Virus record (IMG/VR): IMGVR_UViG_3300019135_000049
Span: 1-32,725 of that record
Reading direction: 5' to 3' (one strand)
Origin: a virus
Length of the DNA stretch: 32,725 nt
Shown: positions 1-22,545 of the stretch, one piece after another
Numbering within the stretch: the first letter of the stretch is position 1
Layout of the letters: each line of letters starts with the position of its first letter
The notes under the pieces: model-generated
Databases searched by the model: none
What the model saw: the letters and a program-made list of their open reading frames with translations, nothing else
What the model was told of the DNA's origin: nothing
Made by a program: the position numbers and the translations under genes

Positions 1-1683
1 TTATTTAATTCTAATTTTCCAACTATGAGGAATTATTTCAGTGTCAACATCTTCAACATCATTTTCTAAAATATAAGCTAACATGGTTGGTAAGTTAAAG
101 AAAAACTCTATCTCTCTACCTTCCTCGGTCTCTTCGTATATTTTGATTTTAGATATTAAAGATAACAACTCCTCAAAAGTATAAAATTCTTTCCTAGACA
201 TCTCTTGAATCTTTGCATAACTTCGTTTAATTTGTTGTTCTTCCTGTTCTATATAGGATAAATCATATTTTGCTTTTTTCCGTTCTAGTTCCTGTCTTTT
301 TTGTTCTAATTGTTCAACTTTTCGTTGTGTTGCAGATATAACAAACTCATTTACCTCATCATTGTTTATAAATGTATCGAGTAGTCTGTTTATCTGTTTG
401 TTAATTTCATTAATTTCATTTTGAATACTATGTCGTTCTTTTTCAATATTTTCTCTTTTTCTTTGCTGGATTTTCATTAACATTTCGTACAATTGTTCTT
501 CTTTATCTTTTTTAGTGATCATGGATTTCATAATTTTCTCTTTAGAGAAGTTCATGATCTCACGTTCAAGAGTATTATGTGAAATCCCTTTCATATCACA
601 AGTCCCATGCACTCTTCGATTCCGGCAGAAATAATTATACTCTGTAATTGTTTTATTTAATTTTTTACGTTTTTTAATTGCGCCCACTCTTGTAAAATAC
701 GCTCCACATTTTGTACAAATGAGTTTTTCATGGAACAAGCTCTTAACAATCCTTGCTCCTTTTTTGCTACCATCGGGCATCATATTTACTCGTTGCTCTA
801 ATATATCCTGTGCTTTCTGCCAAATTTCCTCATCAATTATCGGTGGAATAGCGTCATTAAGAATAATCCATTCGTTTGGATCACGTTCTTTTTTTCGCTT
901 AGACGAGTCGGTAACAGCTGGATTTTTGTATTTATTTAAGACAACTTGTCCTTTGTATTTTTCATTTTTCAAAAGTCTTTTAATTGCTGTTCCATCCCAT
1001 TTTTTACCCTTTCTAGTTTTAATCCCTTTGTTGTTTAGTTCAACAGCAATAGACTTAGTACCCATGTCTCGATTAACATACATATCGAATATCATTTTAA
1101 CAACAGCAGCTTCTTCTTCGTTTATAACATACTTTTTTGTTTCTTTATCGTATTGGTATCCCAATAAAGGTGTAGACATATGATAGATCCCTTTTTTTGC
1201 ACGTTGATTATACCCGAAACGAACTTTTGAAGAACGGTCAATTGACTCTTGTTGAGAAAAAAGTAGAAACAATCCAAGTCTAAACTCCCAATCATCCATT
1301 TCTGTTGATAAGTTAGCATTTTCAAAGAATATATAGACATTGTTTCTACGTAATATTCTAGCAATATCAATGGCATTAATATTTCTTGCAAAACGAGAAA
1401 CGTCTTTGGTAATAATTATTTCAAATTTTGGTTTACGCTCTGATAATTCAAACTCAATTTTCCCATTACTCTTTTTAGTTACATCTATTCCTGCATCATA
1501 GAGCATTTCCAAAAATTTATCTCGCTTAATACTTACTCCCGATAGTCCCTCATCAGCATAAATCTTGAATATTTCATATCCAAGTTCGTTACAGTATTTT
1601 TCATAATATTCCTGCTGATTTTTTAATGAAGTCAGTTGTTCTTCATGATCCGTACTCACTCTTGTATAAATTGCTACTTTCAT
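1..1683 (-). CDS. Large serine recombinase (phage integrase/resolvase type)
   Basis: A large serine recombinase of about 560 residues. These enzymes cut and rejoin two DNA sites through a covalent serine intermediate, and in phages they integrate or excise the genome. The N-terminal resolvase domain carries YTRVST with the likely nucleophile Ser10, and a second catalytic stretch TKDVSRFARN near residue 95. A recombinase domain follows at about 170-270, then a zinc ribbon (CTKCG and CRNRRVHGTC, about 320-370), then a Lys/Glu-rich coiled coil at about 400-480. The ATG at 1683 is preferred over an upstream in-frame GTG at 1692 because AAGGGTGG lies just before it. The stop codon is the first base triplet of the window. 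The protein appears intact. Whether it integrates the element or resolves multimers cannot be decided here, and no att site is evident. Confidence 0.95.
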   Translation of the reverse strand: MKVAIYTRVSTDHEEQLTSLKNQQEYYEKYCNELGYEIFKIYADEGLSGVSIKRDKFLEMLYDAGIDVTKKSNGKIEFELSERKPKFEIIITKDVSRFARNINAIDIARILRRNNVYIFFENANLSTEMDDWEFRLGLFLLFSQQESIDRSSKVRFGYNQRAKKGIYHMSTPLLGYQYDKETKKYVINEEEAAVVKMIFDMYVNRDMGTKSIAVELNNKGIKTRKGKKWDGTAIKRLLKNEKYKGQVVLNKYKNPAVTDSSKRKKERDPNEWIILNDAIPPIIDEEIWQKAQDILEQRVNMMPDGSKKGARIVKSLFHEKLICTKCGAYFTRVGAIKKRKKLNKTITEYNYFCRNRRVHGTCDMKGISHNTLEREIMNFSKEKIMKSMITKKDKEEQLYEMLMKIQQRKRENIEKERHSIQNEINEINKQINRLLDTFINNDEVNEFVISATQRKVEQLEQKRQELERKKAKYDLSYIEQEEQQIKRSYAKIQEMSRKEFYTFEELLSLISKIKIYEETEEGREIEFFFNLPTMLAYILENDVEDVDTEIIPHSWKIRIK

Positions 1684-1747
1684 TGTTTCCACCCTTATTT
1701 ACCTCTATTTCTACAAATATTGTACGGTGTATCCTAAAAGCTGTAAA

Positions 1748-2547: not shown

Positions 2548-2562
2548 ATTTTGAGTGGTCTT
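2534..2562. terminator. Bidirectional terminator between convergent genes
   Basis: Perfect 10-bp stem AAGACCACTC/GAGTGGTCTT with a 9-nt loop. It covers the end of the plus-strand Xre gene and reaches the stop codon of the convergent minus-strand gene. Confidence 0.75.
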
Positions 2563-3250
2563 AATTATTGAAGGCATCATATTGAAAAACACCGTTTGCT
2601 GATTGTAGCTTAATTTTCTCCGATTGTTGTATTGTTTGCCCTGCATATCCAATCTTCTTCATGAACTCATCTATACTTTCTGCTTGAGCAATAGGAAATG
2701 GATAATCTGATACATCCACTTTCTTATTCACCTTACCAATAATTAATACATGGGGGAAAATCGGTTTATTTGTGTTTACAAATTGAGTATATTTCCACTC
2801 TTCTGACTGATACCATTCAAGATATTGCTTTAACTTCTGTTCCGTTTGTTTTGCAGTATACAAAGAGTTTTGCGCTTCAATAAACCATCGGCTTCCCTTC
2901 CATCTTGCAAAAGCATCAGGAATAAAACCGTCAAGGATTGGCTCAATATCATATTGTTTCACTGCATCATATTTCATCATGTCGATGTAAATTTGAGCAA
3001 TCAATAAATAATGGTCTACTTTCTGTGAGTTTTTCTTGATTGTTGTAGGATTCGGAAAATAGATGTACTGGTGAAATGCTTTATCGGTGTTTGCTGTGAT
3101 ATATCCATCTCTGCGAAGCCTTTTGAGAACAAAATTGGCATTGGTATGAGGCTTTTTACAATGACTAAAGAAAAGAGTAGCTATTTGGTCGCGGGTGAGG
3201 CATTTAAAACGCTCTAACGCTGCAATAATCTCTTTATCACGCTTCCTCAT
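2561..3250 (-). CDS. Replication-relaxation family protein
   Basis: About 229 residues. The N-terminal winged-helix part (LTRDQIATLFF, then VLKRLRRDGYI) and the later conserved block with FIEAQNSLYT resemble the replication-relaxation family found in Gram-positive plasmids, integrative elements and phages. Members are thought to act with the DNA-processing machinery of the element, but the biochemical role is poorly defined. The ATG at 3250 lies inside the end of the FtsK-like gene, preceded by GGGTGG. The 14-nt overlap indicates translational coupling and joint function with the translocase. A longer ORF extends further upstream but would run far into the translocase gene. Confidence 0.75.
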   Translation of the reverse strand: MRKRDKEIIAALERFKCLTRDQIATLFFSHCKKPHTNANFVLKRLRRDGYITANTDKAFHQYIYFPNPTTIKKNSQKVDHYLLIAQIYIDMMKYDAVKQYDIEPILDGFIPDAFARWKGSRWFIEAQNSLYTAKQTEQKLKQYLEWYQSEEWKYTQFVNTNKPIFPHVLIIGKVNKKVDVSDYPFPIAQAESIDEFMKKIGYAGQTIQQSEKIKLQSANGVFQYDAFNN

Positions 3251-4439
3251 CTTCATCCACCCAAAACCATTGAATTTGCTTTGGTTGCAAGAAATGAGGT
3301 GTAGTATCAGTGATTTCATTTGTATTATTGTTTTGCTCGTCTTTTACCTCTTTTACTTCCTTCACCTCTTTATAAATCATGAATGGCTCAAGTATCTTTT
3401 TAGCCTTCTCAATATCGAGAAATGCTGACTGAATTTCCTCTTGCTTTTTAATCCTTAAAATAAATCTTCCCGGTTGTTCTAATTTATCGGCTCCGATTGT
3501 ATTAATAACTCTTGCGTTTGTTGCATCTGTTACCTGAAAACCCATTCGTACAGTTAAATTTGCTCGAATTGTTGTATCTAACACATCGGCAGTAGGTCTT
3601 TGCATTGAAAGAATGGCAAATACACCTAATGTACGTCCAATTGCTACAATTTCAATCAAAATATCCATAATTTTTTGGTCATTGCGTAACATTACAAATT
3701 CGTCAATACAAACAATGATATAAGGTTTTTTATACTCTTCTGGTAAATCATCAATATGAGCAACGCCAAATGTATCGGTTAAATCACTTCGTTCATCTAG
3801 TTCCTTTTTAATATGCTGAAGCATTTTTCGAATATCTTTTGGTGAGCTTAAAACACATTTAACATGCTCAATCTGTCTAAAAATATGGAATTCACTCTTT
3901 TTACAGTCGGCAAGATATAATTCTAATTCATTCGGTTTCTTGTATTGAATAAGAGTTGTAAGAATAGATCGCAATTGAGTTGACTTTCCCGAACCTGTTT
4001 CACCAGCAATTAATAAATGCGGATTCTTCGTTAAATCAAACGCTCTCCATTGACCATTTTTATCTTTTCCGCAGATAATTGGTAATTTCATGTCTTTAAT
4101 GACTCGATAAAAAGAATCGTAGTTATATAGAACTTTATCATCAAAAGCATTGTGATATATCGTCAAGGTAAATTTCTTAACATCTCCATCAATCTCGATC
4201 TCCCTACCGAATACTTGTTGAAAGACATATTCTTTCTTGTAAATATCTTTCGGATTCATACCATTTCTTAAGGTAAAGGAAAATACCGTCTTATTATTTT
4301 TAAATTGCACCGCATGGATTTTTGGATAGATACAAATCGTCTTATCTCCACTTTTATAAACCTGATAAATCTCAGCATTCCTAAAACATTTCAGGAGTAC
4401 CGATTTCATTTGTTGTTTCTTAAGCCATTCCTTAAGCAT
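3237..4439 (-). CDS. FtsK/SpoIIIE (TcpA-like) DNA translocase
   Basis: A 400-residue ATPase of the FtsK/HerA superfamily. Walker A GETGSGKST lies at about residues 145-153 and Walker B IIVCIDEF at about 238-245, followed by SMQRPTADVLD and the arginine-rich RANLTVRMGF region typical of FtsK-like motors. There is no N-terminal membrane domain, so it resembles the short TcpA/YdcQ-type coupling proteins of Gram-positive plasmids and ICEs, which pump double-stranded DNA. The neighbouring two-helix membrane protein could supply the membrane anchor. The ATG at 4439 is chosen because GGGGTGAAATA precedes it. It could move the element in replication, segregation or transfer; which one is unknown. Confidence 0.88.
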   Translation of the reverse strand: MLKEWLKKQQMKSVLLKCFRNAEIYQVYKSGDKTICIYPKIHAVQFKNNKTVFSFTLRNGMNPKDIYKKEYVFQQVFGREIEIDGDVKKFTLTIYHNAFDDKVLYNYDSFYRVIKDMKLPIICGKDKNGQWRAFDLTKNPHLLIAGETGSGKSTQLRSILTTLIQYKKPNELELYLADCKKSEFHIFRQIEHVKCVLSSPKDIRKMLQHIKKELDERSDLTDTFGVAHIDDLPEEYKKPYIIVCIDEFVMLRNDQKIMDILIEIVAIGRTLGVFAILSMQRPTADVLDTTIRANLTVRMGFQVTDATNARVINTIGADKLEQPGRFILRIKKQEEIQSAFLDIEKAKKILEPFMIYKEVKEVKEVKDEQNNNTNEITDTTPHFLQPKQIQWFWVDEDEEA

Positions 4440-4449
4440 TATTTCACCC

Positions 4450-4791
4450 CTAGAACGTTGTAAAAAACTTATAGGTAAAGTAGGCAAAAATACCAATCGG
4501 CAACAAAAGATTCATTGTCATTGAAATGATTTCTGCAAGAAAAGCATTGTCATTTCGGATTAAGTGTTTTTCGAGAATAGTAGTACCGATTAACATAATT
4601 CCAACACCAGCAACTAACAAAAGCGCAACATCTGCTGAAGAGCCACTGGGCATGAACGTTCTCGTTGAAATATCTACTCCCATAAATCCAAAAATTGGTG
4701 TATTATATTGTTTAGGAGACGATTTCGTTTTGTGATGCCCTGCCAAGAAATCACGGACGGAATATGTCTCCGTTTTTGTTTTAAATAACAT
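4450..4791 (-). CDS. Small membrane protein upstream of the FtsK-like gene
   Basis: 113 residues with two predicted membrane helices, at about 55-75 (ALLLVAGVGIMLIGTTI) and 85-112 (ISMTMNLLLPIGIFAYF), and a soluble N-terminus rich in Lys, Ser and Thr. GGAGG sits just upstream of the ATG. It ends 10 bp before the translocase start, so both are probably in one transcript. A membrane tether or partner for the soluble FtsK-like motor is a reasonable inference. I do not recognise a named family. Confidence 0.7.
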   Translation of the reverse strand: MLFKTKTETYSVRDFLAGHHKTKSSPKQYNTPIFGFMGVDISTRTFMPSGSSADVALLLVAGVGIMLIGTTILEKHLIRNDNAFLAEIISMTMNLLLPIGIFAYFTYKFFTTF

Positions 4792-4915
4792 CTTTTTCCT
4801 CCTTGCTTAGAGAAATACATCCAGTAACTCACAAAGTTTCGCCTAACTATTGTTGCTACTCATTTTCTCTTAATAATTCGATTAAATCCCTTTATATCAA
4901 CGATTCGGACACGAA

Positions 4916-5000
4916 AACTTTAGTAAGGTCTACTTTAGATGCAACTAGATTTGTTACTAAAGTTAAAATAGAATCCTTGCTTTAGTTGTTACTAAAGTTA
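4916..5000. repeat. Repeat cluster at the 3' end of parR (candidate centromere or operator)
   Basis: TTGTTACTAAAGTTA occurs twice exactly (4951-4965 and 4986-5000, 35 bp apart). Its 11-bp core also occurs inverted as AACTTTAGTAA at 4916-4926. The cluster covers the end of parR and the start of the 206-bp intergenic gap before the membrane-protein gene. Iterated sites beside parMR are the usual form of a ParR-binding centromere, but the assignment is inferred. Confidence 0.5.
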
Positions 5001-5213
5001 GATATAACTATTTGCAATGTCATTATTGATGGTGACTTCATTCTGAAACGGAGTTGTTATCGATGGTTTTTGCATATTACCTTCCATATCACGCTGAATC
5101 AATCGTTTGATATATGCAGAGAAATTTGTTCTTTTCATCGCATGGTTGTATAAGGCACATTGGTCAGGATCAGAAAGGTTAAATGCAACTGGTTTACGAA
5201 TGATTCGAGCCAT
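4998..5213 (-). CDS. parR: ParR-like ribbon-helix-helix partition adaptor
   Basis: A 71-residue protein right after the actin-like ParM gene and overlapping its end by 20 nt. The N-terminal half (KPVAFNLSDPDQCALYNHAM, then FSAYIKRLI) fits a ribbon-helix-helix DNA-binding domain. The C-terminal tail is polar and probably disordered, as in ParR proteins, whose tail contacts the filament end. The ATG at 5213 is preceded by GGGAGG at 8-nt spacing; a longer upstream start lacks a ribosome site. Size and position argue for ParR, although the sequence family is divergent. It probably binds the repeats at 4916-5000 and/or those upstream of parM, and represses the operon. Confidence 0.7.
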   Translation of the reverse strand: MARIIRKPVAFNLSDPDQCALYNHAMKRTNFSAYIKRLIQRDMEGNMQKPSITTPFQNEVTINNDIANSYI

Positions 5214-6018
5214 ATAATGCCCTCCCAATGTTGAAAAATCCAATGCAATTAGCATAAATAGGTGGATAATGTTTATCGTTTAACATAGGGTGAAGAACCT
5301 TAGCATAGGGAAAGTAAGTACGTATCGGTTCTAACAAATGCTCCGCAATTCCCCCAACTAAAAACACGTCATCATCTTTTTTCCAGCGTTTTGACATGTG
5401 GGAATAGATCCCCCTCGCTAATTCACTAAAATTTTTATTACGAATCGTATTAAAGCCAAATGGTAATGTTTCGGAATCACGATTCACATACTTCATATCA
5501 AGTAGAGTTGCACAATTAACTGTTGCACTCCCAACATCAATAATTCGATTTAATCCGTTCATAGGAGTACTTAATAACGCTGATGCTCCTTCTGCTGCTA
5601 CCTCACATTTACTAATCGTAAACGTTTTTGTTACACCATTAACTGTTAGGGTGTGTCTCCCCATTAACATCCTCTTGATTTTCTGTTTTTCTTCACGTGT
5701 ATGTCTGGAGATTGGTTGACCTACTACAATCTCGTAAACATTTGAATTGCTATATCTATGAAGTGCAAGTAGTATTCTAATCTTTGCATCCTCATGTGCT
5801 TTGGTTTCTCCCATTATTGATCCACCAAAATCCGATTCGATTAGTGCAAGAGTGCCTGCAAAACCTTTTCGACCATTGTACTCCCAAACCATTCCGTCAC
5901 CGTGATTGTTTTCGAGATTCCTTTCTTGATATTCTCCAATCGCTGCACAAAATTTATCCAAACCTAACGACCCTGCAACTTTTACTTCGTTATTACCACC
6001 ATCGACACCCACAATCAT
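5194..6018 (-). CDS. parM: ParM-like actin-family plasmid segregation ATPase
   Basis: A 274-residue actin-like ATPase. The phosphate-1 motif VDGGNNEVK is at the N-terminus, the phosphate-2 motif IIDVGSATVNC at about residues 158-168, and the adenosine motif FLVGGIAEHLL at about 219-229. ParM proteins polymerise into filaments that push plasmid copies apart when capped by ParR on the centromere. The ribosome site GGGGGTGAAAAT is strong. The gene heads a two-gene operon with parR, and a 14-bp inverted repeat lies in its promoter region. This is the clearest sign that the element lives as a low-copy plasmid. It is shorter than R1 ParM (about 320 residues) but contains all nucleotide-binding motifs. 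Confidence 0.88.
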   Translation of the reverse strand: MIVGVDGGNNEVKVAGSLGLDKFCAAIGEYQERNLENNHGDGMVWEYNGRKGFAGTLALIESDFGGSIMGETKAHEDAKIRILLALHRYSNSNVYEIVVGQPISRHTREEKQKIKRMLMGRHTLTVNGVTKTFTISKCEVAAEGASALLSTPMNGLNRIIDVGSATVNCATLLDMKYVNRDSETLPFGFNTIRNKNFSELARGIYSHMSKRWKKDDDVFLVGGIAEHLLEPIRTYFPYAKVLHPMLNDKHYPPIYANCIGFFNIGRALYGSNHS

Positions 6019-6887: not shown

Positions 6888-8102
6888 ATGAGAAAGTTTT
6901 TTATGTTATCCTTCGCTTTAGTAATGATGTTGTTAACCGTAGACCATGTTTTTGCCCATCCCGGGGGAAGAGATGAATTGGGCGGACATTTTAGAAGATC
7001 AGACTGCACTTATTTTTTACATGAACCAACATCCATTGCAAGATCTGCTAAGAATATGCAAGAATTAATCGCATTAATAAAAAAGTACAACAGTAACTCT
7101 AAATGCATAAATACTCTAAATGAAAGCAAGGTTGACCTAGAAGGATTTACATTCAGTAATGGTACACCCTCTACCAATCCAACACCAAATCAAACAAAAC
7201 CAGCACCGAAACCAACACCTCAACCACAATTACAATTAGGACAAAAGTATTCAGCTACATTAGCAGGTTGTACAGACGGAGATACTGCTAATTTTGTAAT
7301 CAATGGGAAAACATACAAAACTCGCTTCCTGTATATTGATACACCAGAGAGTACTACACAAGTTGAACCATTTGGAAAAGAGGCAAGTGAATTTACTTGT
7401 ACATTTTTAAAAAGTGGGAAAATAACTCTTGAAACAGATGGGAATTCGCTTTTTGACAAGTATGATCGACTTTTAGCATGGGTATGGGTTGGAGATAAAC
7501 TTCATCAGGAGGAAATTACGAAAGCTGGCTTAGTTGAAGATTTTTATGATTACGGAAATTACAAATACGAAGATCGAATACATGCAGCGATGGAATATGC
7601 AAAAACGAACTATACAGGAATGTACGCTTCGTTAAAACCAGCAGAACAACCTAAATCAACAGAGGATAATAAATCAGAAGGGAAACCCGAAGAATCCAAA
7701 GAAGACGATGCAGAAAAATTTGAGGAAAATAAGGAAACTAAATCAAAAGATGAGCAAGTAAAAACGGATGAGTCAAATAAAAATGACGATAAAGAAGGAA
7801 GAGTTGTTAAAAACTCTGACGAACAAGTAGCATCTCAACAAGTGGCAACAGAAGACCCGACAGCCCTAGATTATGTATTACTCATATTGGTTTTAATCTT
7901 AGTTATCGTATTCTTCAAGATTCCGAAAATAAAAGGTCGATATGGAGTAAGACCACTGATTGCTCATAAGCTACGTTCAAGAAGGACTTGGTTAAACATT
8001 ATACTAGGAATTATTTATCTATTTTTCTGGTTTATTATATTAATAATTGTCGTTATGGAATTTGTACATTTAAACAAAACCAAAAAACACGTATCAATGT
8101 AA
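6888..8102 (+). CDS. Secreted, membrane-anchored staphylococcal-type nuclease
   Basis: 404 residues. A signal peptide (MRKFFMLSFALVMML...) ends at about VFA|HP near residue 23. A short region with HPGGRDELGGH follows, then a Pro/Thr linker. The SNase domain spans about 120-250 and retains the catalytic residues: DGDT, TRFLYIDTPES (Arg, Asp and Glu) and DKYDRLLAW (Arg). Next come about 70 residues of Lys/Glu/Asp-rich linker, one membrane helix at about 328-345 (VLLILVLILVIVFF) and a second at about 367-390. So the nuclease faces outside and is tethered to the membrane, unlike ordinary secreted thermonuclease. It has its own promoter and terminator and reads against its neighbours. A role in degrading incoming DNA, as superinfection exclusion, is possible but inferred. 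Confidence 0.88.
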   Translation: MRKFFMLSFALVMMLLTVDHVFAHPGGRDELGGHFRRSDCTYFLHEPTSIARSAKNMQELIALIKKYNSNSKCINTLNESKVDLEGFTFSNGTPSTNPTPNQTKPAPKPTPQPQLQLGQKYSATLAGCTDGDTANFVINGKTYKTRFLYIDTPESTTQVEPFGKEASEFTCTFLKSGKITLETDGNSLFDKYDRLLAWVWVGDKLHQEEITKAGLVEDFYDYGNYKYEDRIHAAMEYAKTNYTGMYASLKPAEQPKSTEDNKSEGKPEESKEDDAEKFEENKETKSKDEQVKTDESNKNDDKEGRVVKNSDEQVASQQVATEDPTALDYVLLILVLILVIVFFKIPKIKGRYGVRPLIAHKLRSRRTWLNIILGIIYLFFWFIILIIVVMEFVHLNKTKKHVSM

Positions 8103-8103
8103 A

Positions 8104-8140
8104 AATAAAGCCCTTCTCCTCATTTGAGAAGGGCTTTATT
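8104..8140. terminator. Strong bidirectional terminator
   Basis: 15-bp perfect stem AATAAAGCCCTTCTC/GAGAAGGGCTTTATT with a 7-nt loop, directly after the nuclease stop codon. Confidence 0.85.
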
Positions 8141-8218
8141 TATATTCAATTCCCAAGTCTTGAATGATGTTTTCGGTTTTCTCAAACAATTCATTACACG
8201 TTAATTACATTAGACTAG

Positions 8219-8351
8219 AAGGTTGTGTATTCTGCTCGATTTATAAAAAATTAGCCGATTTGAGCCACGTTTCTAAACATGGTAATAGAATTCTATTCAA
8301 CCAATTCTCTAACCTTTAAATCGGCTAATTTTCTCTAAAACGTACAACCTT
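8219..8351. other. Structured element with nested inverted repeats
   Basis: Outer arms AAGGTTGT/ACAACCTT (8219-8226 and 8344-8351) enclose a perfect 15-bp stem, AAAATTAGCCGATTT with its complement (8247-8261 and 8318-8332). Inside are a near-perfect hairpin, CCACGTTT/AAACATGG with one mismatch, and a 14-bp palindrome AATAGAATTCTATT at 8284-8297. No ORF fits. It could be a structured RNA, a miniature transposon-like insertion, or a protein-binding site. It occupies the gap where tail-tip genes would be expected. Confidence 0.55.
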
Positions 8352-8359
8352 TTACATGT

Positions 8360-8557
8360 TTAATTTGTTTTTGCTAAACGAAAGGCTGAACGTTTACGAT
8401 TAATTGGTACTTTGTATTGAATACCAATAAGCTTATCAAATTTAAAATATTCAGCCATGATATCAAAATCTTTGTAATAACGTTTAATGCGTCTCATAAT
8501 ATCTTTGCTTTCTGTATATAAACAATAATAATCACCACATTTCCAAACTTCAGCCAT
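8360..8557 (-). CDS. Small hypothetical protein after the tape measure gene, 65 aa
   Basis: Begins MAEVWKCGDYYCLYTESKDI and is rich in Tyr, Arg and Lys (RRIKRYYKDFD, RKRSAFRLAK). The ATG at 8557 lies 10 nt after GGGGGG; an upstream GTG would be too close to it. It is separated from the tape measure gene by a terminator, so it may be expressed separately or by readthrough. I do not recognise the family, and it is far too small to be a distal tail or receptor-binding protein. Confidence 0.6.
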   Translation of the reverse strand: MAEVWKCGDYYCLYTESKDIMRRIKRYYKDFDIMAEYFKFDKLIGIQYKVPINRKRSAFRLAKTN

Positions 8558-8577
8558 TTGAAGCACGCCCCCCTAAT

Positions 8578-8608
8578 AAAAAAGGTGAGGATAAACAATC
8601 CTCACCCT
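8578..8608 (-). terminator. Terminator at the end of the structural operon
   Basis: 8-bp stem GGTGAGGA/TCCTCACC with a 7-nt loop, followed on the minus strand by TTTTTT. It ends the head-tail transcript right after the tape measure gene. Confidence 0.8.
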
Positions 8609-10632
8609 TATTTGCGATTCATACGGATATACAAATCTAAATCCCTAAATAATTGTTGTGGATTATCAGCTTTTATTGTAACGTTGTGTAAATGATAATG
8701 ATGTTCTGTGTTATTATGATTGTTTGTTATTCTTTCAGACTTCATATTCTGTTTCATTCTATCCCATACTGCATCTGCAAACGGAGCCATATAGGTAGGA
8801 TTTTCTAGAGGTAATATTGCTTCACGTCCATTTTCAGCAAGCCCAACGATTGAAGGCTTATCAAAGATCCCCCCTGTTTGATACCAATCAACTGAAAAAG
8901 TTGGTATTTTAACAGATAAGTCTCCTACACCAAACGATTTCCAGTCTACATCAATATGAGGGAGCTTTGGTTTAGGAATTTTAATTTCTAAATTGCTAAA
9001 TGCTGATTTGATTTTATCGATAATATCAAGGACTGTACTTTTCGCTGATTCAATCGGGGAAGTAATGGCAGTCTTAATACCGTTCCACACGCTAGTTGCC
9101 GTTGACTTAATACTATTGAAAATACTTGATACGTTTGATTTCACTGAATTAAATACTGAGGAAACTGTACTGGAAATACTGTCTATTGTGGAAGAAATGG
9201 ATGATTTAATTCCATTCCAAATGGTACTCACTGTAGTTTTTACCGAATTTAGCGTGTTGGAAATAAAGGTTTTAATGTTATTCCAAACGCTTTGGATATT
9301 TGAACTTATACTATTCAAAATTGATGAAATATTGCTTTTGATAGTATTCCAAACAGATTGGATTAAAGAAGCTATTCCATTCCATATTGTAGAAAATACA
9401 TTTTTAATGACATTAAGCGTTGTTGAAATTGTATTATGTATTCCATTAATGGCTGACTTTATAACCCCATTGATAGTATCCCAAACACCTTTTGCAATAC
9501 TCTTTATCCCTTCCCATACACCCTTCCAATCACCGGAAATGAGGGAAAGAACGGTTTTAATAATACCACGTAAAATTTCGAGCAGTCCTTTAATAGTCTG
9601 TCCAATAGCTGACCACGTTGTTTTAGCCGCTGTTGTAATTTCATCACCGTATTGCTTCCAAATTTGTTTACCAAATGTAACAAAGTCATTGATAATTTGT
9701 TTGAGAATCCCAAGATTTTGTGTAATTGAAGTAGCAACTTCTGGTGGAAGAATTTCTTGGATAACACCTTTCCATCCAGCATTTTTAAAGGCATCTGATA
9801 TACGATTGATGAGGTCAATAATAGAGGGGAGAAAGGATTTTATTTTATCAAATAAGTCACTTGTTACCATTGCGGAGAATGACTTAAGGTTATCTTTTAG
9901 TGTAGACATCATACCGTTAAACGTTTGACTTTGTTTCTCCATCGCACCACCAAAGCGATTACCCATTCCTTCAACAAGGGCTGGAATGACTTGATCAGCC
10001 ATTAATTTGCCTTGTTCGGACATTTTCATCAACTCAGGAACAGATTTATCCATTGTTTCAGAGAGAATTTGCCATGCAGGAATCCCGCGCTCCGCCAATT
10101 GGTTCATTTCCTCTGCTGATGCTTTTCCTTTTGCGGACATTTGAAAGAGAGCCATCGACACACCTTCAAGTTCTTCCTGTCCCCCACCGACTGCTGATAC
10201 CGCATCACCGACTGCTACGAGGGTTTCTTTCAATTTCTCTCCCTCAAATCCAGCCATATTAAGAAGCTTCGCACTCTTGTCTAGCCCTTCAAATTCGAAT
10301 GGAGTTTTAGCACCAAGTTCTTTTAAATCTTGTATTGTTTGCTTTGCTTCCTCTGCGCTACCAAGAAGAGTTGTCCATGCAATTTCTGACTGCTCCATCA
10401 TTGCATTGAATTCTATACCTGTTTTTGTAGCAAGTGTCCCAACAGCAGCAATAGCAGCACCAAGTCCAGCAATTGCACCTGTCGCAAGTGTTCCCACTGT
10501 CGCTCCCCATCGACTTGTACCAGATTCAAAATTCTTTAAATCTTTTTCGGCTTGATCCATCTTTGTTGTAAATTTTGAATCATCAAGCATTATTTCCGCT
10601 TTGTAACTACCGAGATCAACTGTCGCCATCAT
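8608..10632 (-). CDS. Tail tape measure protein
   Basis: 674 residues. The N-terminal part has the conserved tape-measure block (TPFEFEGLDKSAKLLNMAGF, AKGKASAEEMNQLAERGIPA). The middle, about 370-560, is a long repetitive helix-forming region with W-N-x-I units and many Ser, Ile and Val residues. The C-terminus, with GIFDKPSIVGLAENGREAIL and a His-rich NNTEHHYHLHNV, is typical for these proteins, so the gene looks complete. In siphophages the protein sets tail length; at roughly 1.5 angstrom per residue it implies a tail near 100 nm. Its start overlaps the stop of the chaperone gene by ATGA. It is the last recognisable tail gene in the window. Confidence 0.92.
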   Translation of the reverse strand: MMATVDLGSYKAEIMLDDSKFTTKMDQAEKDLKNFESGTSRWGATVGTLATGAIAGLGAAIAAVGTLATKTGIEFNAMMEQSEIAWTTLLGSAEEAKQTIQDLKELGAKTPFEFEGLDKSAKLLNMAGFEGEKLKETLVAVGDAVSAVGGGQEELEGVSMALFQMSAKGKASAEEMNQLAERGIPAWQILSETMDKSVPELMKMSEQGKLMADQVIPALVEGMGNRFGGAMEKQSQTFNGMMSTLKDNLKSFSAMVTSDLFDKIKSFLPSIIDLINRISDAFKNAGWKGVIQEILPPEVATSITQNLGILKQIINDFVTFGKQIWKQYGDEITTAAKTTWSAIGQTIKGLLEILRGIIKTVLSLISGDWKGVWEGIKSIAKGVWDTINGVIKSAINGIHNTISTTLNVIKNVFSTIWNGIASLIQSVWNTIKSNISSILNSISSNIQSVWNNIKTFISNTLNSVKTTVSTIWNGIKSSISSTIDSISSTVSSVFNSVKSNVSSIFNSIKSTATSVWNGIKTAITSPIESAKSTVLDIIDKIKSAFSNLEIKIPKPKLPHIDVDWKSFGVGDLSVKIPTFSVDWYQTGGIFDKPSIVGLAENGREAILPLENPTYMAPFADAVWDRMKQNMKSERITNNHNNTEHHYHLHNVTIKADNPQQLFRDLDLYIRMNRK

Positions 10633-10913
10633 TTCTCACCTGCCTTGTAGCCCGATACTTGACGAAGCTTTGCAAAATCTGGCTCTGTTTGTTTCATACG
10701 TTCACATTTTTCGAGATGTTCTCTACCCTCTGGAGTACTCATGAGATCGAACATTTGACAGTACTTCAAATACGCTAAAAAAATCGCATACGGTAGATTC
10801 ATGATTTCCGTATGCGACATCCGAGTCTTCATATTAAGATACGCAACCTTTTCCATGAATTTAATTCCTTCGCTTCCCCTCGCCTTCCCTTCATCAGTCG
10901 GAAGGGAGGGCAT
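10629..10913 (-). CDS. Tail assembly chaperone, frameshift extension (gpT-like)
   Basis: 94-residue ORF lying between the gpG-like gene and the tape measure gene, in the position of lambda gpT. Its frame is -1 relative to gpG. The frame is open upstream across a CCCAAAC slippery heptamer, so the natural product is probably a gpG-T fusion covering 10629-11233. A free-standing start at ATG 10913 overlapping the gpG stop (TAATG) is also possible. The sequence has a helical NLPYAIFLAYLKYCQMFDLM core. The fusion is expected to coat the tape measure protein and recruit tail tube protein during assembly. It overlaps the tape measure start by 4 nt. Confidence 0.75.
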   Translation of the reverse strand: MPSLPTDEGKARGSEGIKFMEKVAYLNMKTRMSHTEIMNLPYAIFLAYLKYCQMFDLMSTPEGREHLEKCERMKQTEPDFAKLRQVSGYKAGEK

Positions 10914-11233
10914 TAGGAGTTTGGGTTGGAATTAATCTCCATCATTGTTTGCTGGTAAATTTCAACCACTTTACGCATCTGAACAGGAAAAAACTTTCGG
11001 AGGACTTCTTCAGTCGTTACTTTCCGTTCTCCTTGTGAAAGAAGAGTTGCTACCATTTCTGCGAGAAGGTGAATTTGTTCTTCTGCGTTTTTTGCTTTTT
11101 TTGATTTGTTTTCGATAGCGACCATCTGCAAAACGAGTTGAGTAGACGGTGAAGATGGTACTTCGAATGTTTCATCACCGATTTTGAATTGAATGGATTC
11201 CTGCACAAGTAAATCTAAATCAACAATTTTCAT
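10913..11233 (-). CDS. Tail assembly chaperone (gpG-like)
   Basis: 106 residues between the tail tube and tape measure genes, the standard place of the gpG chaperone. It is acidic to neutral and helical (VLQMVAIENKSKKAKNAEEQ, EVLRKFFPVQMRKVVEIYQQ). It ends NSNPNS, and the codons just before the stop contain the slippery heptamer CCCAAAC in the correct phase. Made in excess, it would keep the tape measure soluble, while a minority of ribosomes shift to give the longer gpG-T form. A terminator upstream (11265-11290) separates it from the tail tube gene, which would reduce its level relative to the tube protein. Confidence 0.8.
   Translation of the reverse strand: MKIVDLDLLVQESIQFKIGDETFEVPSSPSTQLVLQMVAIENKSKKAKNAEEQIHLLAEMVATLLSQGERKVTTEEVLRKFFPVQMRKVVEIYQQTMMEINSNPNS
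10919..10925 (-). promoter_or_regulatory. Programmed -1 ribosomal frameshift site
   Basis: On the minus strand the gpG frame reads AAC CCA AAC TCC TAA. This gives C-CCA-AAC, an exact X-XXY-YYZ slippery heptamer, two codons before the stop. A -1 slip gives CCC AAA CTC and continues in the T frame. About 15 nt downstream CCCTTC/GAAGGG can form a stem that could stimulate the shift. Confidence 0.8.
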
Positions 11234-11292: not shown

Positions 11293-11832
11293 TTAGATTT
11301 CTTCGATAATTTCAACTAAATTACCATCTGTTTTATTAGGAACAGCCATAGCAATAAATTCCATGTCTAACACAGTTTCCTTTTCTGCATCAAAATTTAA
11401 TTCAAAGCCTTTTTGATTTTGTGCTTTGAAGATATTAACAATCAAACGCTTCCCTGAAGGTTTATAATGTACGAACCGTAAGAAGTTTATTGGTACATCT
11501 CTTAATCCGCCAATTCCGATACGTCTTTTTCCTGCTGTTGTATCTTCTATATAACTCGCAGCGTTGAGTCGAGAAATATTTTGCAAATAAAACGTACAAA
11601 GACCTGTTTTAAAAATAACCTCTTCAGACGTTTTAAAATTAGCTAAAATATTGTTTTGCGCTCCACCACGAACCTCTTTAAACGTAGGTTTGTATGTCAG
11701 TGTTGCTCCACCAGAAATTTCTCCGATTTTAACTAATGCAGCTTCAATTTCAGCCTCTGTAGCGTTTGGTTCAACGACTCCCAAGAACAAATCGCCCGAA
11801 CCAAGTAAAATCGTATTTGTTTCAGTCGCCAT
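11293..11832 (-). CDS. Major tail (tube) protein
   Basis: 179 residues. It contains LLGSGDLFLGVVEPNATEAE at the N-terminus and a VGGAQNN-like beta-rich body (GGATLTYKPTFKEVRGGAQN), ending with an acidic strand. Length, composition and position between the tail completion gene and the chaperones fit a siphophage tail tube subunit, which stacks in hexameric rings around the tape measure. AAAGGAG lies at the right distance from the ATG. It is followed by its own terminator, as often seen for highly expressed structural proteins. Confidence 0.85.
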   Translation of the reverse strand: MATETNTILLGSGDLFLGVVEPNATEAEIEAALVKIGEISGGATLTYKPTFKEVRGGAQNNILANFKTSEEVIFKTGLCTFYLQNISRLNAASYIEDTTAGKRRIGIGGLRDVPINFLRFVHYKPSGKRLIVNIFKAQNQKGFELNFDAEKETVLDMEFIAMAVPNKTDGNLVEIIEEI

Positions 11833-11834
11833 CT

Positions 11835-12236
11835 TTAAATCATCTCCTTTACTTTTACATGAAAAATTAACAATTGCTCATAAACTCCAAGATCATCAAC
11901 AAACAAAACGCCACCGCCAATGTGTTTGGCATGGTAGATGGCTGTATCATTCACGGTGAACGGTTTTGACTTTGCACGAAAATGCAAAAGATCAATTAAT
12001 CGTTTTGCGATTTTCTCCATTTCAACCACATTTTTCGAGACAATACGAATGTCACAACGATATGTATCAATTTCTCCAGCTTCATACGGAAAAGTTTCAA
12101 AAATCACGTATGGATAGTCATTTCGATTGTAAGGAACACCTGCCGAAATTCGCTTGTTTTTTGGTGTGTAGTCTACAAGTGAAATCAATTCAGTATCAGA
12201 AATAAAAAGGGAATGAAGTATTTGTGAAATCGTCAT
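11835..12236 (-). CDS. Tail completion / minor structural protein (gp17-like)
   Basis: 133 residues starting MTISQILHSLFISDTELISL with the motif KNKRISAGVPYNRNDYPYVI and a later beta-rich domain (YRCDIRIVSKN, YHAKHIGGGV). This is the organisation of the tail terminator/completion proteins related to SPP1 gp17, which cap the tail tube and join it to the head. It starts inside the end of the HK97 gp10-like gene (ATGA-type overlap) and lies just before the tail tube gene, as expected. Confidence 0.75.
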   Translation of the reverse strand: MTISQILHSLFISDTELISLVDYTPKNKRISAGVPYNRNDYPYVIFETFPYEAGEIDTYRCDIRIVSKNVVEMEKIAKRLIDLLHFRAKSKPFTVNDTAIYHAKHIGGGVLFVDDLGVYEQLLIFHVKVKEMI

Positions 12237-12556
12237 TTTACTCCCATCCCCTTCCGTATCATATCCCCGATTTTGTCTCTGTTTTCTTCAATAGCAGGGC
12301 GCAAATATGGCTGTGGTTTGATATTTTTGCTTGCCACTCCGAATTCTGTTGCCGCTGCATATTCTGCATTAGAGCCGACATATGCTTTTGATTGCGTTTC
12401 GCTATTCTCTACTTCATGTGAAATGGATCTTCGAAGGTGTCCTGTATCGACTGGTGCCCGAAGTTTCGCTTCAGCCTCAACAAAAATAGCAATCTGCTGA
12501 ATTGTTCGCTCTCTTCTTTCCTTCATTTTCTGAATCTCTTCCTGAAAACGACTCAT
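12233..12556 (-). CDS. HK97 gp10-like head-tail joining protein
   Basis: 107 residues with the family signature: EAKLRAPVDTGHLRRSI, then SKAYVGSNAEYAAATEFG and PQPYLRPAIEENRDK. HK97 gp10 family proteins are needed for joining heads to tails or for tail tube completion. Both gene ends overlap neighbours by 4 nt, so the connector genes form a tightly coupled block. Confidence 0.9.
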   Translation of the reverse strand: MSRFQEEIQKMKERRERTIQQIAIFVEAEAKLRAPVDTGHLRRSISHEVENSETQSKAYVGSNAEYAAATEFGVASKNIKPQPYLRPAIEENRDKIGDMIRKGMGVK

Positions 12557-12873
12557 GACATATCATCCTTTTTAATCAACACTTCATAGTGCCGATCATA
12601 ATCCATTACGCCTGTAATGGTATAATTTTCATTTCGATATTCAATTTTTTCACCTAATTTCAAACGTGCATCCGGCTTTGTGAACAGCCGATATTGTACA
12701 TCAACTACAATTCCGTAGCGATTTTCAGCTAATTTTGAGGAATAGGGTTCAATTTCACATTGGATAGGAATTCTTACAGGAATCGTCTCATAAATCGGTT
12801 CTCCGAAGTCATTCCAGCCGACTAATACTTCTTCACCTTCAGCAAGAAGATATACTGTTTTCGTTAATCTCAT
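12553..12873 (-). CDS. Head closure / minor capsid protein
   Basis: 106 residues, beta-rich, with LRLTKTVYLLAEGEEVLVGW-like strands and FTKPDARLKLGEKIEYRNEN, ending in YDRHYEVLIKK. This is the head-closure protein position and fold type (SPP1 gp16-like). It closes the head after packaging and forms the tail interface. It overlaps the genes on both sides by 4 nt. Assignment rests on position and general sequence pattern. Confidence 0.75.
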   Translation of the reverse strand: MRLTKTVYLLAEGEEVLVGWNDFGEPIYETIPVRIPIQCEIEPYSSKLAENRYGIVVDVQYRLFTKPDARLKLGEKIEYRNENYTITGVMDYDRHYEVLIKKDDMS

Positions 12874-13169
12874 ACGATTTTCACCCTTCGATATCGATTC
12901 AATTGAGCAAGGATATCATCGGGCAACGAATCACGATACGTTTCAGAAAGTGAACCTTTTTGCTCACTTTTCACGTTTTCTACACCATTCATCCGATAGC
13001 GATAAACAGCAATATCTTCAATCACTTCGTCAAGTTCGGCAGGAATTGTATCAAGATTGCAGTAATTTTTTACGAATTTTTCTGCACGAGAAAGGTAAAG
13101 ATTGAGCAGATTATCATCGTCATTATCAAAAATCCCTAACAATGTTTTCACATTTTCCAATGAAGGCAT
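12870..13169 (-). CDS. Head-tail connector (SPP1 gp15 / YqbG-like)
   Basis: 99 residues, all-helical. It begins MPSLENVKTLLGIFDNDDDN, followed by LNLYLSRAEKFVKNYCNLD and later LSETYRDSLPDDILAQLNRY. This matches the DNA packaging/connector family that docks under the portal. A strong AAAAAGGGGTGATTTAA precedes the ATG. First gene of the coupled connector block. Confidence 0.88.
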   Translation of the reverse strand: MPSLENVKTLLGIFDNDDDNLLNLYLSRAEKFVKNYCNLDTIPAELDEVIEDIAVYRYRMNGVENVKSEQKGSLSETYRDSLPDDILAQLNRYRRVKIV

Positions 13170-13448: not shown

Positions 13449-14378
13449 TTAAACAATTAATCCTTTTAAACGTGCTGCCGCTTTACCGTTGAATACACCA
13501 ATTCCACAGTAGAATTCGATGCGTGTACGATAAGCTGGTTTAGATTCAAGTTCACCTAAATCATAAACTTGAACTCCACCATTTGTTAAGCCAGAAACAA
13601 ATTCATCTGCTCCAAACTTAACTGCATAGATTGAAGTTGTATTATTTGCTGTACCTTGAACTTCATCATGACCAATAATTTTTGTACCGTCAGTTTTTTC
13701 ACCAGCAGCAAACATTGGCACTCCATCGTAAGCCATTACACTTCTACCAAATGCATCAACAGTTTTATCAAAATAGCCTAATTGACGAGCAATAGATTTT
13801 ATCTTTAATAGTGTTTTAGAGTCCATGAATAATGCATCTGCTTTTCCAGCAGTTTGATAAATTAAAGCGTCTAATGCTTCAAGGAATTTATACATACTTC
13901 CTTGGTCAGCATCAATGTCCAAGCCGTTAGTATCAGCTACGATAACTTGATTTCCTGTTAAACGTTTTTTAAGTCCATCGAAGGAATTAGCATCAGTTGC
14001 CGTATCACCGTTGAAGAAAGTATCTTGAAATTTATAAGCCAATGCTTTTGTTTTTAAAGCAGTTTGAATAGCACGTTGATCGTTAATATTGCTGCGAGTT
14101 TGAGCAATAAATTTGTCAACATCAGCATCTCCACCGAGAATAACAAGAGATTCCGTTTTTGGATTTACTGTGCCAGTTGATTCAGAATATGCACCATTTA
14201 CTGCACGGAATTCAACACCCGGAAGTGTTAATTCTTCATTGTATTTGTAGGAGTTACCTTGAATCTCAATGAAAGGTAACATCTGAAGAACTGGGGCATG
14301 TAACACAAATGTTTCCATTACACCTTTCTTTAACGTATCTTGAGATAATTTTGCAGATTCTAATAATGTAATAGCCAT
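13449..14378 (-). CDS. Major capsid protein
   Basis: 309 residues. The position directly after the scaffold gene and the sequence pattern (ETFVLHAPVLQMLPFIEIQG near the N-terminus, TGTVNPKTESLVILGGDADV, FQDTFFNGD, DALFMDSKTLLKIKSIARQL, and YRTRIEFYCGIGVFNGKAAA at the C-terminus) fit an HK97-fold capsid protein of the Gram-positive phage type. No protease gene or long N-terminal delta domain is present; a separate scaffold protein is used instead. AAAGGTGATTTAAT precedes the ATG, and a terminator follows. Confidence 0.92.
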   Translation of the reverse strand: MAITLLESAKLSQDTLKKGVMETFVLHAPVLQMLPFIEIQGNSYKYNEELTLPGVEFRAVNGAYSESTGTVNPKTESLVILGGDADVDKFIAQTRSNINDQRAIQTALKTKALAYKFQDTFFNGDTATDANSFDGLKKRLTGNQVIVADTNGLDIDADQGSMYKFLEALDALIYQTAGKADALFMDSKTLLKIKSIARQLGYFDKTVDAFGRSVMAYDGVPMFAAGEKTDGTKIIGHDEVQGTANNTTSIYAVKFGADEFVSGLTNGGVQVYDLGELESKPAYRTRIEFYCGIGVFNGKAAARLKGLIV

Positions 14379-14404: not shown

Positions 14405-15001
14405 TTAATTTTTAGATTGAGAGTAAGCCACACTCATCAATTGAGTTGGCGATAAATTTTCTAAGTTTTGAGTCGTAGAGTTATTAGCGTTTAAGTTAGT
14501 ACCACTAGATTTAAGTTTTTCTTCAATAGCATTCTGAATATGTGTGTTAAATACTTCTTCAAACTTTGCTAAATTACTTAATGTAGATTCTTCGCTGTCA
14601 CCAATCATGAAATCAACGATGCTTGAAGGAAGTTTCTTTTCAGAAAGAACAGTAAGAGCCTTGTTTTTTAATGCCTCTTTTGTCTTTTCTTGTTCCATCT
14701 GCTTAATTTTCTCTTCAAGTTCACGAACTTTTCTTTGTTCAGGAGTTTCTGCTGGATAACGTTTTGAGATCTCTTCGTCAATCAGTTTTTGAAGGTTATT
14801 TTTCTTCCACGTTTCCAAGCCTTTTGAGAAATGTTTGTCTTTCTCTGAATCAAGCCATTTTTTATAATCTTGATTCTCTGAAAATAATTGTTGCATCTCC
14901 TCAACGCTCAATTGTTTTAAGCCCTGAAGATATGCTTTAACTTCTTCATTCTCTTTGTTTTGTTCAAAAAATTCCTTAACTAGTTCTAATGTGATTTCCA
15001 T
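14405..15001 (-). CDS. Capsid scaffolding protein
   Basis: 198 residues, strongly helical and charged. A coiled coil of Glu/Lys/Gln runs at about 85-125 (VRELEEKIKQMEQEKTKEAL), and a Ser/Asn-rich C-terminal tail ends AYSQSKN. This composition and the place immediately before the major capsid gene are those of Gram-positive phage scaffolds. It should guide procapsid assembly and then leave. A longer ORF reading starts at 15115, but AAAGGAGGTC lies upstream of ATG 15001, making this the real start. Confidence 0.85.
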   Translation of the reverse strand: MEITLELVKEFFEQNKENEEVKAYLQGLKQLSVEEMQQLFSENQDYKKWLDSEKDKHFSKGLETWKKNNLQKLIDEEISKRYPAETPEQRKVRELEEKIKQMEQEKTKEALKNKALTVLSEKKLPSSIVDFMIGDSEESTLSNLAKFEEVFNTHIQNAIEEKLKSSGTNLNANNSTTQNLENLSPTQLMSVAYSQSKN

Positions 15002-15104
15002 AAATATTGACCTCCTTTGCCCTTTCAACGCTTTAGCCCTGAAAGTGCAGATTTTTTTATTTTTCGATTGTTCTTTAACGTCTGCAATCGAAAAAAAGAC
15101 AATA
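15002..15104 (-). promoter_or_regulatory. Structured leader upstream of the scaffold gene
   Basis: The gap holds an 11-bp hairpin TTTTTCGATTG/CAATCGAAAAA (about 15057-15092), a CTTTCA/TGAAAG hairpin, and a TGCAGA/TCTGCA pairing that would compete with the first. No U-tract follows the large hairpin on the minus strand, so it is not a simple terminator. A leader or attenuator for head genes is possible. Confidence 0.35.
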
Positions 15105-15107
15105 TAA

Positions 15108-15130
15108 AAAGCCACTTCAATAAGAAGTGA
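15108..15130 (-). terminator. Terminator after the MuF gene
   Basis: CACTTC/GAAGTG stem with a 5-nt loop, then GCTTTTT on the minus strand, directly after the stop codon. Confidence 0.65.
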
Positions 15131-15991
15131 CTATTGTTTGACTCTTGAGTTATACCATTCATCGTAATTTTTGTATTGAATGATTTGTTTTGTTTCGTTA
15201 TCTTTTCTTCGTGTTGGTTCATATCCTTCAATGATAGGAATCCAACACGAACGACAATTCGGATGTGCAGGAATCATTGGACGATTCGGATCATCAATAC
15301 TCCATTTCTTCCCATCTCTACTACGACATATATCTGATGTACGATTATCGAGTGTTGCTGTATACATGAGATACTGAACAACACCGCTATCTTTATAAAT
15401 CTTTTCATTTGCTGACGAAATTATTCTTCCTGCCTCTGTACGGATTAGACGTTGGGAACTATATGCACTTGAATTGAATTTTTGGTCAATTCTTTTTGCG
15501 ATTTTGTCCAACGATTCACCTTGAGAAATGCCGAGATGAAGTTCGGTTCTCAATGCACGATGTAACGCCTCAATATTTGACCAAATACGATCAGAAAACG
15601 GAATACCACTCCAGTTAAAATTGACAATCTCATCAATTACTTCTTTTCTCAACAACGAAAATGAAATAGATACACCGATACTTTTTTCAATCTCATATGC
15701 TGTACGATAGTAGGCAGAAGCAAATACATTCGCAAGGATAGATGTAACCAATGCAATTTCTGAAATTCCGATATTTCTGATTTCTTCTTGCATTTGACGT
15801 TCGATTCTTGAAATGTCGGATACATTTACTTTTCCGTCATTACCATATCTCATGAACAATTCAGCAATTAATTGCTTTATATTGTCACGATGACGCTTAT
15901 ATAATTTCAATACTTCTCGATGTTCTTTTTCAGAAAGATTGAATAGCTCATCGACCATTTTCAAAAATTCTTTTTCATTCATTTGTGTCAC
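15131..15991 (-). CDS. MuF/SPP1 gp7-type minor head protein
   Basis: 286 residues. The C-terminal third carries the MuF core: SQRLIRTEAGRIISSANEKI, then TATLDNRTSDICRSRDGKKW and IPAHPNCRSCWIP, whose Cys and His residues probably bind metal. The N-terminal two-thirds is helical. SPP1 gp7 binds the portal and affects DNA release into the host. There is no toxin domain fused at the C-terminus, unlike some Gram-positive MuF proteins. It overlaps the end of the portal gene by 17 nt. Confidence 0.9.
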   Translation of the reverse strand: MTQMNEKEFLKMVDELFNLSEKEHREVLKLYKRHRDNIKQLIAELFMRYGNDGKVNVSDISRIERQMQEEIRNIGISEIALVTSILANVFASAYYRTAYEIEKSIGVSISFSLLRKEVIDEIVNFNWSGIPFSDRIWSNIEALHRALRTELHLGISQGESLDKIAKRIDQKFNSSAYSSQRLIRTEAGRIISSANEKIYKDSGVVQYLMYTATLDNRTSDICRSRDGKKWSIDDPNRPMIPAHPNCRSCWIPIIEGYEPTRRKDNETKQIIQYKNYDEWYNSRVKQ

Positions 15992-18980: not shown

Positions 18981-19010
18981 AAAAAAAGACCGTCAATGAT
19001 TGACCGTCCT
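18981..19010 (-). terminator. Terminator after the tyrosine recombinase
   Basis: GACCGTCAA/TTGACCGTC stem, 9 bp with one central mismatch and a 3-nt loop, followed by TTTTTTT on the minus strand. It also separates the recombinase from the terL promoter region, so terL probably has its own start in 18867-18980. Confidence 0.7.
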
Positions 19011-19560
19011 ACAATACAAATGTATCAAGTTCTCTTTCAATTTCTTCTTCCGTGATCCCAATATATCGTAAAGTAATTTCAGGATGACTATGATTTAAAA
19101 TCTTTTGTAACTTAGCAACATCTTTTGTCTGCTTATAAAACCAGTAACCAAAAGTTTTACGCATGGTATGTGTTCCGATACCTTCAGTAATATCTACCAT
19201 CTCTGCTGCTTTATTCAACTGTCTGTATGCTTGCGTTGGTGTTATCGGCTTGTCACCTTTACGAGAAGGAAATAACCATTCACTATCCAATGTTTTAATG
19301 TATTCTTGAATCTCATCGTATATATTGTTTAAATTGATTGTTCTAGCTTTTTTAGTTTTACCTTCTTTGATAACTACCTTTCTTTTTCTTCTCACGTCAC
19401 TTACCTTAAGTTTAAGTAAATCTCCTACACGTAATCCAGTATTAATTCCAATCAAGAAAAGTATGTAATCACGTTCTGAACAATGGCGTTTTAGTGACCA
19501 TTTCATATCTTCAATGAGTTGTTTGTCACGAATCGGCTGAACGTCTTTAATTTGATTCAT
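19009..19560 (-). CDS. Catalytic-domain-only tyrosine recombinase
   Basis: 183 residues with a complete catalytic set: Arg44 (NTGLRVGDLL), a Lys-rich hairpin near 63-72, His131 and Arg134 (THTMRKT), His157 (LNHSHPE) and Tyr166 (LRYIG). It lacks most of the usual N-terminal core-binding domain (normal integrases are about 350-400 residues). Such short XerC/D-like enzymes are common in Bacillus phages near the packaging genes and may resolve multimers or act on a nearby site. It sits between small and large terminase genes. A repeated motif lies just upstream (19584-19703). Confidence 0.92.
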   Translation of the reverse strand: MNQIKDVQPIRDKQLIEDMKWSLKRHCSERDYILFLIGINTGLRVGDLLKLKVSDVRRKRKVVIKEGKTKKARTINLNNIYDEIQEYIKTLDSEWLFPSRKGDKPITPTQAYRQLNKAAEMVDITEGIGTHTMRKTFGYWFYKQTKDVAKLQKILNHSHPEITLRYIGITEEEIERELDTFVL

Positions 19561-22012: not shown

Positions 22013-22100
22013 CTCCAATCATCTCCTTAAATAATCACTTCGGCAAAAGGAGAGAACTTCCTTTTAAACTGGCACTTTCTTTTTATGTACAATTACCATA

Positions 22101-22456: not shown

Positions 22457-22545
22457 ATAAATCGCGCCTCCTCCCTTCACTCCAATAATTCTACATAAGA
22501 GAGGAATTTCCTGTTAAAATATATAAAAATTTGTAATATTTTCGG

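Follow-up and report, generated by a model that had tools for sequence, protein, structure and literature searches.

The window analysed here comprises the 32,725 bases of IMGVR_UViG_3300019135_000049, a viral record without an attached host genome, and carries on its minus strand a late operon with the gene order small terminase subunit (terS), tyrosine recombinase, large terminase subunit (terL), portal, minor head protein, scaffold, capsid, adaptor, connector, neck protein, a 133-residue protein, tail tube, two chaperone-like ORFs and tape measure protein (TMP). The terS gene (19723-20127, 134 residues) matches PHROG 2538 (5e-5) and has homologues at the same site in the relatives G003, G005, G006, G357, G251 and G420, terL (17271-18866) matches PHROG 38 (7e-95), and between the two lies a tyrosine recombinase of 183 residues (19009-19560; PHROG 216, 3e-61; Pfam Phage_integrase, 2e-26). 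They are followed by an SPP1-type portal protein (15975-17252; PHROG 64, 8e-128; 90% identity to G001 with a dN/dS of 0.04), a minor head protein (15131-15991; PHROG 115, 2e-78), a head scaffolding protein (14405-15115; PHROG 172, 1e-29) and the major capsid protein (13449-14378; PHROG 212, 3e-89; dN/dS of 0.05 against G001). As regards a head maturation protease, the profiles show this scaffold (PHROG 172) and, on the minor head protein only, a match in name to PHROG 595. A head-tail adaptor (12870-13169; PHROG 132), a connector of 106 residues (12553-12873; PHROG 32600) and a neck1/tail completion protein (12233-12556; PHROG 5) come next. A recombinase gene at or near the terS-terL junction is present in most members (the window, G003, G005, G006, G340 and G357); it is of the tyrosine type in the window, G357 has a serine resolvase-like protein instead, and its function is perhaps multimer resolution.

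The 133-residue protein between neck and tail tube (11835-12236) is conserved in the family, with 77-83% identity in G001 and G003. The probable major tail (tube) protein (11293-11832) weakly matches PHROG 885, major tail protein (3e-4), as well as PHROG 2175, and sits between neck and chaperone genes; the ORFs of 106 and 94 residues behind it (10629-11233), kept in all tailed members, are probably the tail assembly chaperone pair, judging from a match to Pfam Phage_TAC_19 just under the cut-off (1.6e-5) and from their position. A family HMM of the tube protein finds matches in 11 of 397 genomes from the order of Metabacillus fastidiosus, and tblastn among phages returned two remote matches and nothing else. 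The TMP (8608-10632, 674 residues) is identified by PHROG 58 (1.5e-71) and Pfam TMP_3 (5e-33), and its C-terminus is 52-64% identical to TMPs of Geobacillus phages, which are the closest among phages. A sequence-only reading of this DNA had the tail module stop at the TMP without tip or lysis genes, a terminator closing the operon, and a 65-residue ORF, a structured element and an opposite-strand nuclease following in turn, and this description holds. An intrinsic terminator with a 12-bp stem and a T-run lies at 8609-8581 on the minus strand (shuffled sequence yields 0.4 +/- 0.8), and comparable hairpins are found 3' of the TMP gene in L001, L002, L003, L004, L046, G340 and G357. Past the terminator are the ORF at 8566-8360 (minus strand; 65 residues from ATG, 68 from a GTG start), an inverted repeat with 25-nt arms (8237-8261 and 8318-8342, 88%) and, on the plus strand, a gene for a secreted or membrane-anchored protein with a staphylococcal nuclease domain (6888-8102; Pfam SNase, 2e-14).

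Further along the minus strand are encoded a ParM/ALP-like actin partition protein (5194-6018; PHROG 691, 7e-42; Pfam ALP_N), an 85-residue protein whose gene overlaps the 3' end of the ParM gene (4998-5255; PHROG 8966, 2e-15), an FtsK/SpoIIIE-HerA ATPase (3237-4496; PHROG 1358, 1e-91), which in Geobacillus phages is the gene after lysis, and a replication-relaxation protein (2561-3319; Pfam PF13814, 4e-14). Together with small membrane proteins they form a module (2561-6018) comparable to those of G420, G340 and G251; TrbC/VirB2-like proteins, under the cut-off, occur in G340 and G251, and an M23 peptidase in G251. The FtsK, relaxation and ParM set resembles a slimmed-down module for mobilisation or plasmid maintenance, part of which is also present in Geobacillus phages.

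The left end of the window is taken up by a large serine recombinase, the probable integrase (1-1692, minus strand; PHROG 95 and Pfam Recombinase; 70-74% identity in G001 and L002), and the right end by an HTH gene (32201-32725). Since the edges of the record are exact ORF ends, the stop codon of the recombinase at the start and the start codon of the HTH gene at the end, the window looks like a provirus trimmed at gene ends. G420 is colinear with the window and matches it closely from the HTH gene to the replication-relaxation gene, and by this colinearity only about 2.9 kb, corresponding to integrase and Rep in G420, would be missing at the right end. The element also carries a tRNA-Ile with the unusual anticodon TAT (22544-22618, minus strand), and Rfam detected in the window this tRNA alone, besides sub-threshold chance matches. 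A putative zinc metallopeptidase of 167 residues, which contains an HELGH motif, is encoded at 21515-22018. When plasmids and phages were searched for nearly identical DNA, no match was obtained, and an FtsK protein scan of viral contigs confirmed zero relatives.

Tip and lysis genes in the window and its relatives

The sequence-only reading had seen no endolysin, holin pair or fibre-like protein elsewhere in the window and had proposed to search the remaining contig for Dit, Tal, amidase and holin genes. PHROGs and Pfam scans of the main window ORFs revealed no Dit, Tal, fibre, holin or endolysin, and in tblastn none of 24 tip and lysis proteins (drawn from NIIg9.7, PK3.5, Dulem virus 30, G032, G081 and G107) matched the window or any of the elements. 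Only the control prophages G032, G081, G107 and G132 were matched by these queries, and TMP and FtsK queries did match the elements in the same search. Pfam confirmed Dit, Gp37, Amidase_3 and GH25 in the controls, and the Dit, Tal or receptor-binding protein and holin-endolysin genes that characterise a complete temperate siphophage, for which these four served as positive controls, were not found in the window. A holin-sized protein is possible among the small membrane ORFs, for example at 23552-23734.

The Geobacillus siphophages vB_GthS_NIIg9.7 and PK3.5 resemble the window in late-gene order, in the TMP C-terminus and in having FtsK and replication-relaxation genes after the late genes, but their head genes are different and their order is TMP-Dit-fibre-XhlA-holin-amidase-FtsK-replication/relaxation. 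The distance from TMP to FtsK is accordingly 7.1-7.5 kb in these phages versus 1.5-4.4 kb in the elements, in which the site of the tip and lysis block is often occupied by a cargo gene, the gene for the 68-residue protein and the palindrome formed by the inverted repeat. As the order in the elements equals that of the Geobacillus phages minus one block, deletion of this block is the likely origin of the layout.

The order from TMP to FtsK/replication-relaxation without tip or lysis genes is shared by the window and at least nine diverged relatives (G001, G003, G005, G340, G357, G420, G333, G251 and G301), of which G005 is counted on its TMP end and its 68-residue gene, its FtsK gene lying beyond the record. 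The 68-residue gene directly follows the TMP gene in G001, G003, G005 and L002/L004, and G333, G251 and G301 have the tipless order without it. G420, an element of 37.3 kb with one IS, lies between perfect 84-nt attL/attR repeats at the 3' end of spo0A, and G340, 41.8 kb including several transposases, lies between 95-nt repeats with one mismatch, also at the 3' end of spo0A (Spo0A_C, 9e-44). Neither contains a tip or lysis gene between its repeats. G357 is a near-complete contig of 34.7 kb, likewise devoid of tip and lysis genes, with queF-like sequence at both ends (from translation), consistent with contig ends that represent a break at an att site. In the comparison with complete relatives, which the sequence-only reading had suggested in view of a deletion scar, the layout is neither a truncation nor a one-off deletion, as it recurs in diverged relatives, the complete G420 and G340 among them.

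Identity of the window to G001, G003 and G420 is 94% for the capsid, 88-90% for the portal and 68-76% for the tube protein, and the TMP is 69% identical between the window and G001. Wherever a simple estimate was computable, the genes for head, neck, tube, chaperone and TMP have dN/dS values of 0.04-0.18, which, with dS often near saturation, are indicative of purifying selection on the head and tail genes. Tiplessness may or may not have a single origin, as phylogenies of the portal, the minor head protein and the tube protein place the controls at the end of long branches and show a mosaic portal.

Completion of the particle and rival explanations

How could an element of this kind complete its particles? 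With good confidence, we regard the window as an integrated phage satellite, complete but for a small part, from a Bacillales host; it has its own packaging, capsid, neck, tube, chaperone and TMP genes and would borrow tip and lysis functions from a helper. The sequence-only reading had offered three options, a defective element, a satellite using the tail tips and lysis of a helper, or genes outside the window, and the satellite is the best supported of them, its dependence on a helper being what we infer. It may be envisaged that a helper siphophage multiplies in the same cell in which the satellite excises, replicates and turns on its late operon. TMP and chaperones of the satellite would then recruit Dit/tip complexes of the helper, on which the satellite tube protein would polymerise until the tail has the length that the satellite TMP dictates. 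At about 0.15 nm per TMP residue, the TMP of the window would be expected to give a tail near 100 nm, and a TMP of 1187 residues one of 178 nm. Such a chimeric tail would dock on satellite capsids filled by the satellite terminase, and holin and endolysin of the helper would free the particles. Because the TMP C-terminus, the part that should contact the tip, has its nearest phage counterparts in Geobacillus siphophages, these are candidate helpers. Among the resident prophages of G357, G310 and G291 no specifically matching TMP was found, and the genomes of G340, G088 and G084 yielded no Pfam Sipho_tail. If the proposed mechanism is true, the satellite makes everything except the tip, which would provide a natural test of mutual recognition between TMP and tip and show how far a satellite can go short of being a phage.

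That the window represents an autonomous temperate phage, with tip and lysis genes that escaped recognition or are located elsewhere, is very unlikely. Such a phage could be missed, as tip and holin genes diverge fast, small membrane ORFs exist and the window is open at one end, but the complete att-bounded relatives lack any candidate gene, the gap between TMP and FtsK in G333 is just 1.5 kb, and sensitive profiles do recognise the other morphogenesis genes. For the close relatives, a location of the genes outside the window is excluded by the att-bounded G420 and G340 and the near-complete G357, all without tip and lysis genes. It is highly improbable that the window is a mobilisable or plasmid-like element which uses an FtsK/relaxase route for transfer and whose particle genes yield tailless or tipless capsids only. 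The clustered FtsK/HerA, replication-relaxation, TrbC/VirB2-like (under the cut-off), M23 peptidase and ParM genes could serve another transfer route; however, ordinary complete Geobacillus siphophages share the FtsK-relaxation pair, and selection acts on those packaging and tail-tube genes that were tested. The least probable explanation is a prophage in decay after loss of the tip and lysis block, corresponding to the defective element of the sequence-only reading. The layout persists across members with TMP and tube proteins diverged to about 40%, dN/dS is well under 1, and the 68-residue gene and the palindrome are kept at the junction, which all speak against decay, although a gene order that differs from Geobacillus phages by one missing block and the IS elements in some copies would be compatible with it.

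A lineage of Bacillales satellites that encode both capsid and tail tube is the best reading, and the closest known systems are the cf-PICIs and the PLEs of Vibrio cholerae. The cf-PICIs make their own heads and obtain tails from a helper (Alqurainy et al., 2023, as described in PMC10690885). Like them, the window is integrated, has its own terminases (TerS and TerL), portal, capsid and connectors, and is devoid of tip and lysis genes; unlike the cf-PICIs as portrayed in PMC10690885, which take the whole tail from the helper, the window and nine relatives encode tube, chaperones and TMP, and have SPP1-like head genes with a scaffold, FtsK/relaxation genes and in some cases ParM. Some cf-PICIs carry TMP genes (PMC12987554). 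PLEs have been called the first known case of satellites that combine their own proteins with those of a phage in one tail (PMC12987554, 2026): their chimeric tails combine the PLE's TMP, tail assembly chaperone (TAC) and baseplate hub with tube, sheath and baseplate of the helper ICP1, whose capsid protein is also hijacked (PMC12987554). As in PLEs, TMP and TAC belong to the satellite (the TAC just under the Pfam cut-off and by position), helper parts would complete the tail, and the satellite TMP would set its length. In contrast to PLEs, tube and capsid are self-encoded in the window and the hub is not, the gene order is siphoviral, and the host belongs to the Bacillales. The Streptomyces satellites MulchRoom and MiniFlayer likewise encode capsids and rely on helpers, but belong to another lineage and are reported without a module of TMP, chaperone and tube (PMC10690885). 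The combination of head, tube and TMP without a tip is described neither for cf-PICIs in PMC10690885 nor for PLEs in PMC12987554, and the open-access literature searched contained no Bacillus or Geobacillus cases of such satellites.

The 68-residue protein, the palindrome and a wider group of elements

The 68-residue protein, a hallmark of these satellites, is conserved in seven IMG/VR records including the window and in 13 genomes. Its profile matches 12 of 397 genomes from the order of Metabacillus fastidiosus, and the protein has no counterpart among 50,697 phage records and 72,556 plasmid records. An AlphaFold model (pLDDT 79) predicts a beta-beta-alpha-beta-beta arrangement, for which the PDB holds no significant match. 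A function as tail-tip substitute was considered and ruled out, as the protein is also encoded after a head-only operon (G006) and in tube-less islands.

These islands of 13-17 kb encode distant homologues (42-50%), have flanking repeats of 44-100 nt with mostly tRNA-like ends, and carry an integrase, HTH regulators and often a Rep-like gene; in several of them an HNH-like gene immediately precedes the 68-residue gene. Clear tape measures are found in G088, G310 and G291 and TMP-like ORFs in G084 and G133, no TMP lies inside the repeats of G136 and G277, and a tube gene is present in none of the islands. G088 additionally has a capsid protein and terS. In G006 a full head operon leads to the 68-residue gene with no tail gene in between, a head-only layout like that of the cf-PICIs described in PMC10690885. 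Att-bounded elements with integrase, regulator, replication and packaging genes and no lysis genes, as in PICIs, are G340, G420, G088, G084, G310 and G291; the window's own att ends were not seen. Taken together, the group reads as satellites that contribute differing shares of the virion. It is moderately likely that they constitute a Gram-positive group of satellites not described before, with the 68-residue protein as its mark and made up of TMP-only islands, head-only elements and head-plus-tube elements that all outsource the tip. If this is true, satellites could take charge of virion assembly to any extent that leaves out the receptor-binding tip, and tail length could be set by the satellite while the host range of the helper is kept. 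Upstream in G006, away from the head operon (L056, 10586-12374), are ORFs of 234 and 170 residues that by eye resemble tail-completion and tail chaperone proteins and have no Pfam match.

The structured element noticed in the sequence-only reading is real. The inverted repeat at 8237-8342 has a folding z of -3.7, and its pattern TTAGCCGATTT-N(42-70)-AAATCGGCTA is found a single time in the window with zero expected; among 2.9 million viral contigs only 5 contain it, each of them from this satellite family, and it is also present in G340 and G420 and missing from G006. Since the stem is invariant, with almost zero compensatory change, an RNA structure was rejected and the palindrome is read as a DNA site, which would suit binding by a protein; an origin, a packaging site and a regulatory site are possibilities. 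The 68-residue gene and the palindrome are simple markers for finding more members, in thermophiles that are not pathogenic and from which phages have been isolated.

Between the 68-residue gene and the HTH/FtsK module lies a variable cargo site (6888-8102 in the window, 12437-13543 in L001, 10453-12281 in L046 and 10384-11867 in L048), which, depending on the member, holds the nuclease, a secreted-looking protein of 368 residues, small lipoprotein-like genes or a transposase (G340). In the G088 island (L080, 170-280) a nested inverted repeat, which differs in sequence, begins at the stop codon of the 68-residue gene, echoing the layout of the window.
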